Shown here: piece by piece, positions 38,594-49,568 of the stretch
Numbering within the stretch: the stretch's first letter is position 1
Layout of the letters: each line of letters starts with the position of its first letter
Assembly (NCBI GenBank): GCA_003155695.1
Contig: PMDZ01000004.1
Coordinates: 1 to 49,568 of the forward strand
DNA length: 49,568 bases
DNA from: Candidatus Nomurabacteria bacterium
GTDB taxonomy: Bacteria > Patescibacteriota > Minisyncoccia > Phycocordibacterales > UBA9973
Direction: 5' to 3'
The notes under the pieces: generated by a model
What the model saw: only the letters and a program-made list of their open reading frames with translations
What the model was told of the DNA's origin: nothing
The model's database searches: none
Translations under genes and position numbers: made by a program

Positions 38594-38734
38594 GAACCTT
38601 ACAGGTTCAGTACACCTTTTCCGTTCGCTTCGCTCACAGGGAAAAGGTCTTCTCGTCCTCTACGCAAGCAAAGCAGTTTGCTTGCTATCGTGTAAAAAAA
38701 TTACTTACGTAATTTTTTGTGCACGATAGAGGAC
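38594..38734. repeat. Family-B multi-hairpin repeat, overlapping the 3' end of tRNA-Val
   Basis: GAACC-TTACA-GGTTC, AGTACACCTTTTCC..GGAAAAGGTCTT, GCAAGCAAA-GCAG-TTTGCTTGC, AAAAAATTAC-TTAC-GTAATTTTTT. Confidence 0.85.
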
Positions 38735-42379: not shown

Positions 42380-42409
42380 TATATTACCGGGACCGCGAGT
42401 ACGCTTATC

Positions 42410-42552
42410 GAACCTTACAGGTTCAGTACACCTTTTCCATTCGCAAGCTCATATGGAAAAGGTCTTCGCTTCCCGGACGCGGGCAAAGCAGTTTGCCCGC
42501 TTAGGGTCACAAATTAAAAAACCCATCTTGCGACAGTTTTTTTAATTTGTGA
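42410..42552 (+). repeat. Family-B multi-hairpin repeat
   Basis: GAACC-TTACA-GGTTC, AGTACACCTTTTCCAT..ATGGAAAAGGTCTT, GCGGGCAAA-GCAG-TTTGCCCGC, TCACAAATTAAAAAA..TTTTTTAATTTGTGA. Confidence 0.88.
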
Positions 42553-42659
42553 TGTATTACTATCCTTTGCACGAACTTATTTCGAACAAAATGAATGATA
42601 ATCTTACGCTCTACTTTTGAATTTTCTTCAATAAAACTACAACGCTCTACTAATGTATA

Positions 42660-43240
42660 AATGCTGACTCGGTTTTGCGAAACTAAATTTGCGGGAATGG
42701 ATTCGCAAAACCTCGACTATTCCCATTTTGCCTTGATTTCTGATTTTGCCGTGCAGGAGGAACTCGGAAAACAAAATTCAAAATACATTGTCTCGGGCAA
42801 GTTACATATTTATATTTTCGTGATTATTTAGAGTTAAAGGGTATCACCCTCGGCATTCGCCTCGGGCTTTTCCGCTATGGCTACTCGCGCCTAGATGCTT
42901 ATGAGCGGGAAAGGGTAACGGCTCAAATACTGGGGAAATGAGCCGTTAGGGTTCCCGCGCTTCTTGGGGAGAGGAAGTTTCCTCTCCCCGGGTCGGGCTA
43001 CTCCTGATTACAGGAGTTCTGCCCTCGCCATCCCCACTCTACGCTTTTCAGTATTATGTTTATCTTATCGCTTTCGCTACTTGAGATTAGTATCAAAATA
43101 CAATCACGGCGCTCATCCTTTAGCCACTGGACGCCATAGCGGAAAAGCCCGAGGCGAAGAATACGTGCTTTGCCCCAGTTCCGTGTGATTACACACGGAA
43201 CTATCCCACCCGTGCGTGCACGAGGAATTCACTCCCTTTT
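42660..43240. ncRNA. Candidate large structured noncoding RNA or fold-back element (orientation unknown)
   Basis: Perfect 26-bp IR 42856-42881/43133-43158 enclosing further perfect hairpins; no credible protein. Confidence 0.55.
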
Positions 43241-43793
43241 AAATTTTAGAATAGAATACAGATTTTCCTGTTTTCCCAGTTTGGTTTATTTTGTTTTCCT
43301 TTTCCAAAGTATTCAGATATCTTTCAGCTGTTGCATCAGATACATGCATGAATTTTTCAACTTCGTCATTTGTGATTTTAGATTGTTTTAAAAATAAAGT
43401 CATAACTTTATCCAACTTCTTTTTCTTTCTGAACTGAATCATATTCCTTGCTTTGATTAGAAGTTCACGCGCTAATTTTTTTGTTGAAATAATTACAGGA
43501 ATTGATTTTGTTTCAACTGGTTCGGTTTTAATTTCGGGATTTTGTTCAACTGGATTTGATTCTATTTTAACAGGCTCAGATTCAGTTTCTGATTCAACTG
43601 ATTTTGTTTCTGTCGGAATAATTTCATCAACTTGTTCAGTCGTTGGTTCATTTGGAATTTCAGGACTAGCTAATGGCTCAGATACTGGTATTTGAGCCGT
43701 TTGAGGTTCTAAATCTTGTTCAGGTTCGGAAATAGGCTCGTTTTGTGGCTCAACTACCTTTATTTCTTCATTTGCTGTTGTTTCTTCTGCCAT
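43239..43793 (-). CDS. Pro/Glu-rich disordered N-terminus fused to a C-terminal winged-helix-like domain
   Basis: EPISEPEQDLEPQ...; KLDKVMTLFLKQSKITNDEVEKFMHVSDATAERYLNTLEKENKINQTG. Confidence 0.7.
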   Translation of the reverse strand: MAEETTANEEIKVVEPQNEPISEPEQDLEPQTAQIPVSEPLASPEIPNEPTTEQVDEIIPTETKSVESETESEPVKIESNPVEQNPEIKTEPVETKSIPVIISTKKLARELLIKARNMIQFRKKKKLDKVMTLFLKQSKITNDEVEKFMHVSDATAERYLNTLEKENKINQTGKTGKSVFYSKI

Positions 43794-44016: not shown

Positions 44017-44673
44017 ATGCAAACAGAATTTTTAATTTCAGGTATTACAACCGGTCAGTTAAATGCAATGGTAAAAAATATCATGGCTCAGACTGGTATT
44101 ACAGACCCAAGTAAAGCAGTACGCATGTTAAATGCTGGTAGACTCATTATTTCAGTAGTTGATTCAGGCTGGTATGAAAAAGATGGGATAATCTATCTTT
44201 CTCTTACTTCTGATGGCACTCCTAAAGAAGAATTGATTAAGCGTTTAGAAAGTAAAGGGATTAATATTGAATATTTTTCCCAAAATCTTTTTTCTTCATC
44301 TGATTTAACTCCTACAAATGGGGTGTCCTACAAAATAGCTATCCTTAAACCAGAACTATTTATAGGAAATCGTCTTACTCATGGATTAGTTTGTGAGGAA
44401 GCAGTTAGTCGTAATTTAATTGCTCTGAATCTCGAAGCTTCATGTCTTCTATCAGACAGATTGTCTTATCAGGACATCTCTGAGATGGGTTTAGATTCTC
44501 TCGATTTTATGCATGAACCAGTAGATTCAAATCTGAATGATTCTGGAGAAAGAGGTCCGCGAAGGCTTCATTTTAGCGGTAGTTCACTCAGTGCATATTA
44601 TGTACACGACGAAGGTTCTGTTGCTGCAGAGATAACAATGAGAAGAGGTTTTGCTTTTCTTATGCAGGAATAA
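44017..44673 (+). CDS. Hypothetical protein (218 aa) with strong Shine-Dalgarno
   Basis: AAGGAGGTTATTATG; own consensus promoter and terminator. Confidence 0.8.
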   Translation: MQTEFLISGITTGQLNAMVKNIMAQTGITDPSKAVRMLNAGRLIISVVDSGWYEKDGIIYLSLTSDGTPKEELIKRLESKGINIEYFSQNLFSSSDLTPTNGVSYKIAILKPELFIGNRLTHGLVCEEAVSRNLIALNLEASCLLSDRLSYQDISEMGLDSLDFMHEPVDSNLNDSGERGPRRLHFSGSSLSAYYVHDEGSVAAEITMRRGFAFLMQE

Positions 44674-44707
44674 GGGAAAGAGTAATCCTAATTTTAAAAT
44701 TACTCAC

Positions 44708-44741
44708 ACAGCCAATTAACCATATTGGCTGTTTTTATTTT
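44708..44741 (+). terminator. Intrinsic terminator
   Basis: ACAGCCAAT-TAACCAT-ATTGGCTGTTTTTATTTTT. Confidence 0.9.
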
Positions 44742-44789
44742 TAAAAATGACAACAATTCAATAAATATAATTTATGATATAATTTCAAT

Positions 44790-45206
44790 ATGAATAAAAG
44801 ATTGACTTCTATGTTCATCCCTTATTACCTTAAAGATAACGAGCTTTATGTTTTTTTACAAAGGCGTAATTTTGATGCCAAACACCCAAACAGTTTAGGC
44901 TCATTCGGTGGTGGATTAGAAAACGAAGAAAATAACGAAAAAGCTTTGATTAGAGAAATTAGTGAAGAATTAGAATATACTCCTATTAATTATTCATTAC
45001 TTGGAGTTTTTGAAGATGATTACTCTATTTCAAATTATTATATTGAAGAAGTTAAAGAAAATTTTGAAACAAGTATTAGTATACATGAAGGGAAAGGCGG
45101 AGAATGGCACCTGGCAAAAAAAGTTATAGGAAGAGATGATATAAGTTTAAATACAAATAATGTAATGCAAGAAATGATTGTTAAAATCGAAAAAAGCTTG
45201 AAGTAA
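44790..45206 (+). CDS. NUDIX hydrolase
   Basis: GGGLENEENNEKALIREISEEL; TATAAT-N6-ATG upstream. Confidence 0.88.
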   Translation: MNKRLTSMFIPYYLKDNELYVFLQRRNFDAKHPNSLGSFGGGLENEENNEKALIREISEELEYTPINYSLLGVFEDDYSISNYYIEEVKENFETSISIHEGKGGEWHLAKKVIGRDDISLNTNNVMQEMIVKIEKSLK

Positions 45207-45800
45207 TTACTTTATAGCTAAAATTTCCATTCCTCTTTTGCCGACCCAATATTTAAATTTTAAAATTTTAAAACCTTTTTTTAATAATAAATTTTTAAAT
45301 GACTTCGAAGATAAGTATTTTTTATTTATTCCTTCATTAGAATCATAAATTTCATAGTCTTCTTTTTTGTCGCTCACAGCCGAAGTAATATATAAAACTC
45401 CATTTTTTGCTAATAAACTTTTAAGCTTTTTTATAAATTTTTCTTGTTCCTTTATTGATATATTATGGAAAACTCTTGAACACCATATACCATTAAATTT
45501 TTTTGTGGTTAGTAAATCCATAATATCTATAAGTCTGAAATTGACTTTAGGGACATGTTTATGAGCAAGCTTAATCATTTCTTTAGAGATATCAATTCCG
45601 AGTACATCAAAACCACGATCAAATAGGAACTTAGAATCTTGTCCACCACCACAGCCTAGATCTAAAACCCTAGCTTTTAAAGGTAATTTCGATGCAAATT
45701 TTTCGAGAGATTGAATAGATAAATTCTCCCCATAGCCGTGCTCTTGAGTATATTCTTTTGCAATTTTATTATAATAATTTTTTATTATTTTATTTTCCAT
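45207..45800 (-). CDS. Class I SAM-dependent methyltransferase
   Basis: ARVLDLGCGGGQDSKFLFDRGFDVLGIDISKEMIKLA. Confidence 0.9.
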   Translation of the reverse strand: MENKIIKNYYNKIAKEYTQEHGYGENLSIQSLEKFASKLPLKARVLDLGCGGGQDSKFLFDRGFDVLGIDISKEMIKLAHKHVPKVNFRLIDIMDLLTTKKFNGIWCSRVFHNISIKEQEKFIKKLKSLLAKNGVLYITSAVSDKKEDYEIYDSNEGINKKYLSSKSFKNLLLKKGFKILKFKYWVGKRGMEILAIK

Positions 45801-45872
45801 TTTTTGTTATATCTGACACATAGCATAAAACTTAACATATTATATCATATTCGATCTTGCATTTTAAAAATA

Positions 45873-45899
45873 AAATAGCCGACTTTTTGTCGGCTATTT
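45873..45899 (-). terminator. Intrinsic terminator, perfect 11-bp stem
   Basis: AAATAGCCGAC-TTTTT-GTCGGCTATTT. Confidence 0.85.
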
Positions 45900-45940
45900 A
45901 TTTGTAGCAATTTTACTATTAGGCTTGCTCTTTTCCTTTA

Positions 45941-46924
45941 CTACTCTGGAACAGATGGAATTTCGTGGCAGTTGATATACTTAAGATACTTAAGTATTAT
46001 CTTGTCAGCTTCTTCCCATGAGATGTCCCTATAAGCGTTTTCTTCTGTCAGTGGTTCTACACTAAGAGCTTTAAAGATTGTTTCTAAAGCTCGAGAAAGT
46101 TTGTCACTTTCTGATTCATTTATGCACTCAACGAACATCATGCATTTGTTTGACTGAAAACTGAAGTGAAGATTGGCCCAGTCATCACCAAAATCTATAA
46201 AATCCTTAATTTTGGCATCAAACTCATAGTGTTCGTATTCTTCATCGCTACCCCAGCGTCCGGCTTTCAATCCAGCCAGACTAGGTTCAAATTTAGAAAG
46301 TGTTCCATTTTCCAAAAGTTCGGATATAAATGGAGAAACCTCATCGATTATCAGCCCAAAATTTTTATAGCGAGCAATCCACCCAGCTAAGTTTTTTAAC
46401 CCAATTACGTCTTTAAGGTCAAGCTTACTTTTTGGCACTGGCAGAATTCCATCATTCGGTCGAACGACGAGGAAGCCAAAGGTATTACTCCAGCTCAGTG
46501 GTCGCTCATAGAGGTTAAGTCTACGCTTAAAATCGTAGGTAGTAAGAACAGGAATTTCATACTTACTATTTCCATACTGAAAATTCGATCCCAGAGCGAA
46601 AATGGGAAATTGTCGTTGCATTTCCGGATTAATTTCGCCAAACTTTAGAAGTTCGGGTAAAGTTGCAGGAAGATAACCATCTTCAGCTATTCTACGAATA
46701 GAATCTTCACTAGAGATTGACTCATTAAAAAAATAAATTTTATAAATTCCATCAATCTTTTTGCCGATCAATTTAACAGGCAAGGGAAAATTTTTAGTCT
46801 TAATATCGTCATTTATCCGATACTCGTATTTTCCTTCGGCTATCATCTGTTCCAAGGTTTTTGAATAATCAACAGTCATTACAAATTCAGAGTTCTGTAA
46901 CTCCGTAGAAGATTGCTTTTTCAT
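45941..46924 (-). CDS. Hypothetical protein (327 aa)
   Basis: Long ORF with promoter, leader and terminator; family not identified. Confidence 0.8.
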   Translation of the reverse strand: MKKQSSTELQNSEFVMTVDYSKTLEQMIAEGKYEYRINDDIKTKNFPLPVKLIGKKIDGIYKIYFFNESISSEDSIRRIAEDGYLPATLPELLKFGEINPEMQRQFPIFALGSNFQYGNSKYEIPVLTTYDFKRRLNLYERPLSWSNTFGFLVVRPNDGILPVPKSKLDLKDVIGLKNLAGWIARYKNFGLIIDEVSPFISELLENGTLSKFEPSLAGLKAGRWGSDEEYEHYEFDAKIKDFIDFGDDWANLHFSFQSNKCMMFVECINESESDKLSRALETIFKALSVEPLTEENAYRDISWEEADKIILKYLKYINCHEIPSVPE

Positions 46925-47038
46925 AATTTTATATTTAAAAAGTTAGACATTAATTAGATTATTCCTACCTCCAGGGTTTAGAGACAAAAATAATCTAACT
47001 AATGTAACCTTAAATATCAAAGAACTTTTCTACTCTAC

Positions 47039-47067
47039 AGTATAGCATATTATTATACTATTGTCAA
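47039..47067 (-). promoter_or_regulatory. Sigma-70-type promoter for the 45941-46924 gene
   Basis: Minus strand TTGACA-N17-TATACT. Confidence 0.8.
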
Positions 47068-47153
47068 TACATATTGTCTTTCCACCCCCGCAAAAAAGAA
47101 CCAGTAAATACTAGCTTTATTAACGCAAGGATGAAACCAGTGCTTTTAGTGTT

Positions 47154-47930
47154 TTAATCAATATAATTCTTAAAGAAAGACTGTCCCTTTTCATCTTTAA
47201 TAAGAATAGGAACATCTTTGTATAAATCAACCTGGCATGAGAATTTTACATCTTCGGGGTAACCCATATTAATCAATTCTCTACCACTACTTGAATCGTT
47301 TATTAACTCACTTAAATTTGGTTTGGCATTCTGAAATGCTCCAATACAGACTTTTGCTTCTGGCGATTTTGTGCCCTCAAGTTTTTCAAGTATTGCTCCT
47401 GCACCAAGATAGTCTTCAATGCTTGGTCTTAATTCTCTTGATTCATCATTTGTACTTCTCCATCTTTCGCCACAAGCAATTACAGTAATATTTATATTTG
47501 TTTCTTTTTGAATTTTATTCACGATATTAGCAATAGAAGAAATGTTAAGTAAACTACCAATCAAAATATAAGCGTCCTGTTTTGAAGCCTTGGCACACGT
47601 TGCTCCATTTCTAGAGGACAAAACATATCTCTTATCTTTATGTGATTCATTAAACGAAGTAGCTGACAAAGAAGGAAGACCCGCGGTTTGCGATTCAACT
47701 CTTCCCAAACAAACTTCCGCATCAACAAGTTTTCCGAATTCTTCAATATCTCCAACTTTTGGGAACGGATAAACAATAGCTCCGTGATGTACAGCGCCTG
47801 TGATCGTAGTTGAAAAACTTAGAACATCAACAATCACGATAATATCACCTCTATTTGAAGCTTCAATCGTTCCTTTTTCTCCCCAATCCATACGGCATTG
47901 ATAAGGAGACTGATCAAAAATATTTTCCAT
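47154..47930 (-). CDS. 2-phosphosulfolactate phosphatase (ComB)-like
   Basis: IVIVDVLSFSTTITGAVHHGAIVYPFP; RYVLSSRNGATCAKAS; ILIGSLLNISSIA. Confidence 0.8.
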   Translation of the reverse strand: MENIFDQSPYQCRMDWGEKGTIEASNRGDIIVIVDVLSFSTTITGAVHHGAIVYPFPKVGDIEEFGKLVDAEVCLGRVESQTAGLPSLSATSFNESHKDKRYVLSSRNGATCAKASKQDAYILIGSLLNISSIANIVNKIQKETNINITVIACGERWRSTNDESRELRPSIEDYLGAGAILEKLEGTKSPEAKVCIGAFQNAKPNLSELINDSSSGRELINMGYPEDVKFSCQVDLYKDVPILIKDEKGQSFFKNYID

Positions 47931-47976
47931 ATATTAATATTGTATCATAAGTAAGTAATCATTTTTATTCTTTTCT

Positions 47977-48375
47977 TTACTCTCTTTCCCATGCTTTAAC
48001 ATCAGGATGAAAATCTACTTGATATGGTGGAATTCCCAGCGAAAGACCATATTCTTTAGCTTGATTATATTGCTCTATATTATCTCTTTTAATATAAAAA
48101 ATTTTATTTGGGAAAATAATATAATGGTGAGTTTTGTTCCGGAAATCAGCATACCAACTGGAATGTTCTTTATCAAAAGACTTACTTATTTCTAATGCAA
48201 TATTTTCTGCTTCATTTTCTGGAATTAATGTAAAATGTAGAGTCCATTGCTTAAGCCACGGGGTTCTGTGTTTGTCAGTGATACTTTCAACTTTCGTGCT
48301 TAAAATTTGGACTTTCTTTAATACATCTTTATTATCCAAACTTTCTTCAATTATTGTTCCTTTATAGTCTTTCAT
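47977..48375 (-). CDS. Conserved hypothetical small protein
   Basis: 132 aa ORF, 4 nt from the upstream gene. Confidence 0.65.
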   Translation of the reverse strand: MKDYKGTIIEESLDNKDVLKKVQILSTKVESITDKHRTPWLKQWTLHFTLIPENEAENIALEISKSFDKEHSSWYADFRNKTHHYIIFPNKIFYIKRDNIEQYNQAKEYGLSLGIPPYQVDFHPDVKAWERE

Positions 48376-48379
48376 AAAA

Positions 48380-49243
48380 TTATTTTTTTAATTTCTTTGC
48401 AATCTCATATTCTTTTTTAGTTAATTCAAGGTTACAATTTTTAAACTTATATAAATCGGAAAATGTTTTACCATATTCATATAGGCTGGATAATGAAACT
48501 GCATTTAGACTTTGGCTGTCTAAATAGAACTCAAACGAATCACATCGTGGACATTGGTCGCCACTTCCCATAAGACTGAAAGCATTTGGAGTATGTATTG
48601 ATAGCCTATCGCTAGTTATTAAATTTCTGTGATTAAAACCCCTGATAGTAACAGATGAAAAAGGATTATACTCTGTAGATTGTATTTTTTTCTTAACTTC
48701 CTCAATTAAAACTTTTTCTAGTTCTTCTTCTGAATATTTCTTTTTTGGTTTATTGGATTTTATTAAATCTTTTCCAAAGATAGACACTGCTTGAACAGAA
48801 ATTTTTTCCCATACTGTTCCCATTTTTTTAACAAGATTTTCTTTTTCAAGCAGAACATCATTATCTGGTTTATAACCATGCACAAAATGGTTTCTAATAT
48901 TGTATATATCAATTAGAACTTGAATTTCGTCATCAGAAAATTCGTCAACAAACATCAAATTATATCTGCTTAGGGTTTCTCTTATTTTAATAGTTTCAAT
49001 ATTTAATTCCTTTTCCTTTATTATAGATATTAGAGCATCATCATCTTTAGTTTTTGAATTTTCATACACTAAAACTGGATTTTTTGAATGTAATTTAATT
49101 TTAAATATTTTTTCTGTTGTAATACAAAAAGCTACAATTATTTCAGGTAAATTTTCTTGCTTATTTGGAATATCTGCAAGGTAATCATCTACTTGTGAGT
49201 AAAGTCGTAATAAATATTTATAATCTTTTTCGTTTACCTTCAT
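48380..49243 (-). CDS. HEPN-like protein (R-x4-H motif) with a C-terminal CxxC
   Basis: VLIDIYNIRNHFVHGYKPDND; SGDQCPRCDSFEFYL; 4 nt downstream of an XRE gene. Confidence 0.6.
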   Translation of the reverse strand: MKVNEKDYKYLLRLYSQVDDYLADIPNKQENLPEIIVAFCITTEKIFKIKLHSKNPVLVYENSKTKDDDALISIIKEKELNIETIKIRETLSRYNLMFVDEFSDDEIQVLIDIYNIRNHFVHGYKPDNDVLLEKENLVKKMGTVWEKISVQAVSIFGKDLIKSNKPKKKYSEEELEKVLIEEVKKKIQSTEYNPFSSVTIRGFNHRNLITSDRLSIHTPNAFSLMGSGDQCPRCDSFEFYLDSQSLNAVSLSSLYEYGKTFSDLYKFKNCNLELTKKEYEIAKKLKK

Positions 49244-49247
49244 AATT

Positions 49248-49451
49248 TTATTTTAATAACTCACTACTTGAAATTCCTAATGCTTCAGCAATTTTTTCTA
49301 ATGTTGAAAGAGTTGGATTCATGCGACCATTTTCTATATTACTAATATATGCTCTGTCTACATTAAGTTTTTTAGCTAAATCACCTTGTGATAGTTTATT
49401 TTTTAGTCTTAATTTTCTGAGGTTTTCACCGAGTCTTTTGCTTGATTGCAT
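49248..49451 (-). CDS. XRE-family HTH regulator (start trimmed to 49451)
   Basis: RLGENLRKLRLKNKLSQGDLAKKLNVDRAYISNIENGRMNPTLSTLEKIAEALGISSSELLK. Confidence 0.92.
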   Translation of the reverse strand: MQSSKRLGENLRKLRLKNKLSQGDLAKKLNVDRAYISNIENGRMNPTLSTLEKIAEALGISSSELLK

Positions 49452-49543: not shown

Positions 49544-49568
49544 CCTCCTGCACGGCAAAATCAGAAAT
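49544..49568 (-). repeat. 25-nt inverted copy of 42736-42760, cut off by the window edge
   Basis: Reverse complement ATTTCTGATTTTGCCGTGCAGGAGG is identical to 42736-42760. Confidence 0.85.

Follow-up and report, generated by a model that had tools for sequence, protein, structure and literature searches.

The locus and its structured core

The window, the whole stretch of 49,568 nt that was analysed, comes from a Candidatus Nomurabacteria contig and contains a 401-nt structured RNA core on the minus strand (42836–43236), whose 5' end, GGGAG, lies at 43236, 2 nt past the stop codon of the upstream gene. That gene, C0 (43239–43793, minus strand), encodes a Pro/Glu-rich N-terminus, a long helix and a winged helix, and beyond it lie cargo genes (44017–49243) for NUDIX-like, methyltransferase-like and 2-phosphosulfolactate phosphatase-like proteins and for unknowns. 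An Xre-type HTH regulator (49248–49450, minus strand; HTH_3, E = 2e-20) is the first gene of the cargo module after the left copy of a repeat, IR2, whose inner end (49544–49568) is an inverted repeat of the inner end of IR2'. IR2' itself (42553–42760), the right repeat of the cargo module, carries the left arm of attP/attR and occupies a position that is homologous in other elements. It is bordered by the attR core TCACAAA (42546–42552, minus strand), identical to the tRNA-Glu 3' end plus flank at attL. A terminator-like hairpin after attR (42507–42545, minus strand), as judged from its sequence, probably marks where the tRNA-Glu gene originally ended. The rest of IR2 and the internal attP (J2) fall inside a 75-N assembly gap just beyond the window, and past the gap are the recombinase gene (contig 49772–51259) and the tRNA-Glu gene (~51278–51350).

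The initial annotation had described a GC-rich, structured noncoding region between 42660 and 43240, closed by a perfect 26-bp inverted repeat. The repeat (42856–42881/43133–43158) is there, as are the GGGGAGAGGA, GAGCCGTTA and GGTTTTGCGAA hairpins and two hairpins with ATTA loops, and the GC content is about 0.5 against about 0.3 in the genes beside it (~0.48–0.51 across the stretch vs ~0.26–0.36 in neighbouring genes). The extent had to be redrawn: 42836–43236 stands as the core, and 42546–42760, including the hairpin at 42671–42712, is the terminal inverted repeat of a mobile element. When folded against dinucleotide shuffles, the minus strand gave z = −10.3 and the plus strand z = −8.0, and none of 100 shuffles was as stable as the stretch. 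A scan of the whole window with Rfam 15 at the gathering threshold returned two tRNAs and nothing else, and a scan of 42480–43300 up to E = 5 returned chance miRNA matches alone. Thus the core matches none of the Rfam 15 covariance models, GOLLD, ROOL, OLE and HEARO included, and neither scan yielded a group II intron or retroelement RNA.

Read in the minus sense, the core opens with a 5' domain (43170–43236; helices 2–4 of the alignment A2 described below) made up of GGGAG, a GTGC/GCAC helix and a hairpin with a GUAAUC loop (43177–43202). The perfect repeat forms the long helix 5, with arm 1 (43133–43158) as its 5' arm and arm 2 (42856–42881) as its 3' arm. In the RNA sense both ATTA loops read GUAAUC; across homologues the loops are mostly UAAU-like and the stems variable. 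A near-invariant hairpin, GGGGAGAGGAAACUUCCUCUCCCC (42966–42989, minus strand), is kept in all 27 sequences of alignment A1, with paired changes rare. We considered the CCGAGAC motif of the 3' tail, which is similar to arm 2, as an alternative partner of arm 1; the tabulation was mixed and we claim no switch.

The GAGCCGTTA hairpin is present and yet separate from the rest: it is a copy of a dispersed palindromic repeat (AACGGCTCA..TGAGCCGTT, 42918–42950) inserted into a variable stem of the RNA, and it is absent from 8 of the 27 homologues. Hairpins like it are found at other places in related genomes and also within the ORF next to the RNA. The repeat is ~30–45 nt long with a conserved loop, TTTCCNNGGTATT, and a variable stem, and is found at many places in related genomes, with copies in the RNA, in the C0 coding sequence (43669–43705), where it is read in frame (TAQIPVSEPLA), and in a terminal repeat of another locus (L117). 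It is reminiscent of the Rickettsia palindromic elements. Its echo in the C0 ORF could be taken as mRNA mimicry of a site on the RNA, and insertion of the palindrome into both is the better explanation. A second dispersed repeat, GC-rich and ~90–110 bp long, lies in the window at 42390–42500 and 38594–38681, with further copies at G000:C8:17506–17610, C12:139344 and C2:5177. One copy is 3' of tRNA genes, and the repeat ends in TTAGGGTCACAA, resembling the tRNA-Glu 3' end that is used as an attachment core.

Conservation, covariation and strand

When 148 genomes from the family to which the window belongs were searched at the DNA level, 48 proved to contain homologues, ~72–92% identical over varying lengths. 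R1, a covariance model built from the 3' part of the RNA, matched 43 of the 148 and, across the order, 55 of 397 sampled genomes in 38 genera. Other orders of the class gave a few matches and genomes outside the class one convincing match (G1131, E = 3.5e-13), some of the weakest listed matches being the short dispersed palindrome alone. The named contigs that carry the near-invariant 24-mer are nearly all from Nomurabacteria or other Parcubacteria/Paceibacterota MAGs, or from unnamed bacterial MAGs; one is labelled Bacteroidetes. The IMG/VR viral contigs and the phage and plasmid collections searched gave no homologue of the RNA, and so offer no sign that it resides on phages or plasmids. At one locus (L029, G122:C25) a gene for an IS110-family transposase directly follows a truncated core, apparently inserted into the RNA.

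For the comparative folding we used A2, in which 18 full-length members are aligned by MAFFT without fitting; its consensus structure has 84 pairs. In A2, 97.9% of the cells pair, against at most 45% in controls in which the partner was slid, and double compensatory changes occur at least once in 32 of the 84 pairs, compared with a mean of 14.7 in shuffled alignments and 3–7 with slid partners. None of 500 shuffles attained any of the five measures. Since the shuffles ignore relatedness and the same alignment supplied the structure, the slid controls are the fairer check, and these also fall short by a wide margin. The changes are spread over the fold: helices 2–4 of the 5' domain contain 12 doubly changed pairs, and 7 of the 23 pairs of helix 5 show compensatory double changes. 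The extensive structure with compensatory changes that marks a large structured noncoding RNA on a mobile element is therefore found here.

Among pairs predicted independently on both strands, the minus reading has nine G-U pairs and one A-C pair, and the minus sense folds better in 46 of 59 members. The RNA also has a hairpin with a changing stem capped by GAAA/GGAA-type loops, and in one homologue (L015) a variant stem capped by UUCG. Because of the covariation, the strand-biased G-U pairs, the better folding of the minus strand and these loops, we take the region to act as an RNA in the minus-strand sense, as its sequence comparisons suggest. The idea of a new structured RNA, one of three offered at the outset, is thus strongly supported, with no Rfam match even at E = 5, deep covariation across genomes and an identified sense strand.

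The integrative element around the RNA

On contigs that hold a whole element, of 7.7–9.5 kb, the order is tRNA 3' end, IR1-recombinase-IR1', IR2-cargo-RNA-IR2' and attR, with the RNA as the last feature before IR2'. This repeat, of 84–350 bp, starts ~65–130 nt beyond the modelled part of the core and has its inverted partner 2.8–6.6 kb upstream; the two are 84–100% identical within a unit and differ between units. Of 51 copies of the RNA, 18 have a large serine recombinase within 10 kb, where ~6% would be expected and many contigs end too early for one to be seen, and all 15 upstream recombinases are divergent, facing away from the cargo. The recombinase has Resolvase (E = 2e-22), Recombinase (E = 4e-11) and zinc-ribbon (E = 7e-10) domains. 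An attL at the tRNA 3' end shares a short direct core with attR (CAGC, CCGC, GCAC, CTC or TCACAAA), and attL (tRNA-core-IR1 arm) and attR (IR2 arm-core-flank) read as the classical products of integration. The junction between the modules is a complete attP in inverted orientation (J2 = J3 left arm + core + J1 right arm), its left arm coming from attR and its right arm from attL. The logic of the window's attR is repeated in four other fully resolved elements, with matching junctions at L155 (tRNA-Gln), L157, L158 (tRNA-Leu) and L161 (tRNA-Thr). The excised circle predicted from these junction sequences would contain two inverted attP sites. Together with the conservation above, this anatomy makes it probable that the RNA, read in the minus sense, represents a family absent from Rfam 15 and is a conserved part of integrative elements that target tRNA genes and carry the gene for a large serine recombinase.

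Because many MAG contigs cut the element off at IR2, its complete layout is visible only in a minority of cases. Several contigs (L042, L047, L075 and others) end exactly inside the inverted repeat, with 141–159 bp common to both ends. The repeat breaks assembly, so that such elements are probably under-reported in MAGs.

The RNA module can take either orientation, given the additional attP between the modules. A related genome (G053) has the same tRNA-Glu insertion as the window and a 95% identical recombinase, with its RNA module in the opposite orientation and bounded by a 121-bp repeat at 99% identity. Opposite orientations at the same tRNA-Glu indicate that module inversion is a natural event, for which either the recombinase or homologous recombination may be the agent. 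The yeast 2-micron plasmid has inverted repeats with recombination sites for a tyrosine recombinase, and the predicted circle is similar to it in having two unique segments between two inverted repeats with recombinase sites, both isomers of which occur; the element here differs in having a serine recombinase, in integrating at tRNA genes and in giving no evidence of amplification or of inversion made by the recombinase. Known tRNA-targeting islands of large serine recombinases share the Resolvase, Recombinase and Zn-ribbon domains, the attL at the tRNA 3' end and the same short core at attR, whereas the element here has an extra complete attP between two modules bounded by inverted repeats.

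The cargo varies from unit to unit and includes type II restriction-modification, Schlafen/AlbA-like, E1-E2/ThiF-like and OLD-like ATPase genes, a DGR reverse transcriptase with Lcl_C-domain proteins, PAP2/VTT membrane proteins and unknowns. The recombinase is the only constant protein, besides a frequent xre gene, similarly placed in L155, L158, L164, L107, L108 and L174. DGR genes (reverse transcriptase and Lcl_C-type targets) are carried as cargo of recombinase elements at L060/L145, L116 and L052, and such cargo is a possible route for the spread of DGRs in CPR bacteria. The suggestion that the RNA is associated with a retroelement is not supported, since reverse transcriptases, of the DGR type, occur only as cargo and in a minority of the units.

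The architecture extends beyond the elements that have the RNA, since 18 of 20 other recombinase loci, which lack an R1 match, have the same inverted repeats around or beside the recombinase. An IR2 pair is visible in five of these 20 elements. Three of the five (L174, L179 and L181) have a different RNA at the same site before IR2', which opens with the same GGGAG...GUGCGCGCAC...GGGGCAAGCACA domain, and L163 is a fourth example. The local match of the 5' domain to these type II RNAs is far above shuffles (scores of 55–67 vs 21–26), and their 3' part has no significant similarity to that of the first type. The four examples (L163:18030–18330, L174:13640–13920, L179 and L181), the only ones seen, have a AGAGGAAGCGCCTCG core in the 3' domain. 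The remaining two elements with a visible IR2 pair have no recognisable RNA; these two, and the presence of IR1 in most RNA-less sister elements, imply that the RNA is inessential to the architecture.

Possible roles of the RNA

We infer the expression, any processing and any function of the RNA. It would be produced as the final part of the cargo transcript or, next to a divergent gene, from a promoter of its own, would fold on its own, and would serve the element, not any cargo gene, in the establishment, maintenance or control of the excised circle. The main argument for a service to the element is that the RNA is retained while all the cargo changes. A stand-alone, element-serving RNA of the GOLLD/ROOL sort is the reading we tentatively prefer by analogy. 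A regulator or stabiliser at the 3' end of the cargo transcript comes next, and the weight left after these two is shared by the control of replication, the control of recombination and other roles. GOLLD and ROOL are RNAs of mobile elements, of unknown function and found near tRNAs (PMC12286853). The RNA described here is similar to both in its large elaborate fold, its place on mobile DNA and its frequent nearness to tRNA genes, and to GOLLD in having one conserved and one variable region; at ~400 nt it is shorter than their ~660–800 nt (PMC12286853), and it matches neither Rfam model. It also differs from them in being tied to Paceibacterota recombinase elements with paired inverted repeats, not to known phages. 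The PLE satellite offers a further likeness, by description and not by sequence comparison: a noncoding transcript, IIR, lies between inverted repeats on an integrative element whose integrase is near one attachment site. On the side of differences, that transcript has antisense matches to the leaders of PLE genes, and no description treats the PLE repeats as an internal attP (PMC7567579).

The strongest rival, which we regard as a real if lesser possibility, is a regulatory 3' UTR, in which the RNA would protect or control the cargo mRNA that ends in it, perhaps bound by C0. In the first 34 loci a same-strand gene usually stops 2–20 nt before GGGAG, and C0 is the same-strand neighbour in 17 of them, as this explanation would have it. 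However, the upstream gene changes freely and is divergent in some units (L107 and L115), and the ~400-nt structure that is kept exceeds the needs of a stabilising stem. C0 as an obligate protein partner was rejected, since it adjoins only about half of the copies in this first set.

It is rather unlikely that the RNA takes part in processing the element's DNA, as a replication primer, as a copy-control RNA of the circle or by acting on the recombinase. Its fixed place beside the attP-bearing repeat, the predicted circle with two inverted attP sites, and the cargo inspected, in which no conserved replication protein stood out, would fit such a role; but large serine recombinases need no RNA, RNA-less elements exist, and complementarity between the RNA and the att sites was not demonstrated. 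The more specific proposal, that the RNA has an active part in the DNA transactions of a so far undescribed class of integrative elements with a second, inverted attP, and controls either the replication of a two-isomer circle or the site choice of the serine recombinase, has in our estimate only a slight chance of being right.

We give a similarly small chance to the structure working as DNA, that is, as a single-stranded or cruciform element with the role of an origin, of a transfer site or of a folded site for recombination. The perfect long palindromes, the nearness to attR and the mobile context are what one would expect of it. Against this, each att site is an ordinary short core that sits where a repeat ends on its outer side, ~280–390 nt from the RNA core, and the strand bias of the G-U wobbles, the better folding of one sense and the GNRA and UUCG loops all speak for an RNA. 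The initial annotation had also allowed for a fold-back mobile element, which is correct insofar as an integrative element does have a true inverted repeat immediately outside the RNA and incorrect insofar as the 26-bp arms are an RNA helix, internal to an element whose true ends are IR1/IR2 and the att cores. A decayed transposon end or MITE-like fold-back with functionless palindromes is hardly credible, for all the inverted repeats and dispersed palindromes abundant nearby, given compensatory evolution in more than 30 genera and covariation statistics that already contradict it.

We found no description of the RNA or of the element in the open-access literature, a scope outside which most subscription papers fall, and a prior description is possible. 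Large mobile-element RNAs are a known kind; the RNA family and the architecture of its host appear to be new. To our knowledge, no more than a handful of large folded RNAs have been described from bacteria, with obscure functions for nearly all. The RNA described here is widespread in one branch of the CPR; the mobile element that carries it is precisely defined, down to attachment sites legible in the sequence, and the alternative 3' domain on a common 5' domain provides a built-in comparative test. The two repeat-bounded modules joined by an inverted attP would on their own be of interest to the mining of serine integrases and to the study of defence islands in reduced genomes.
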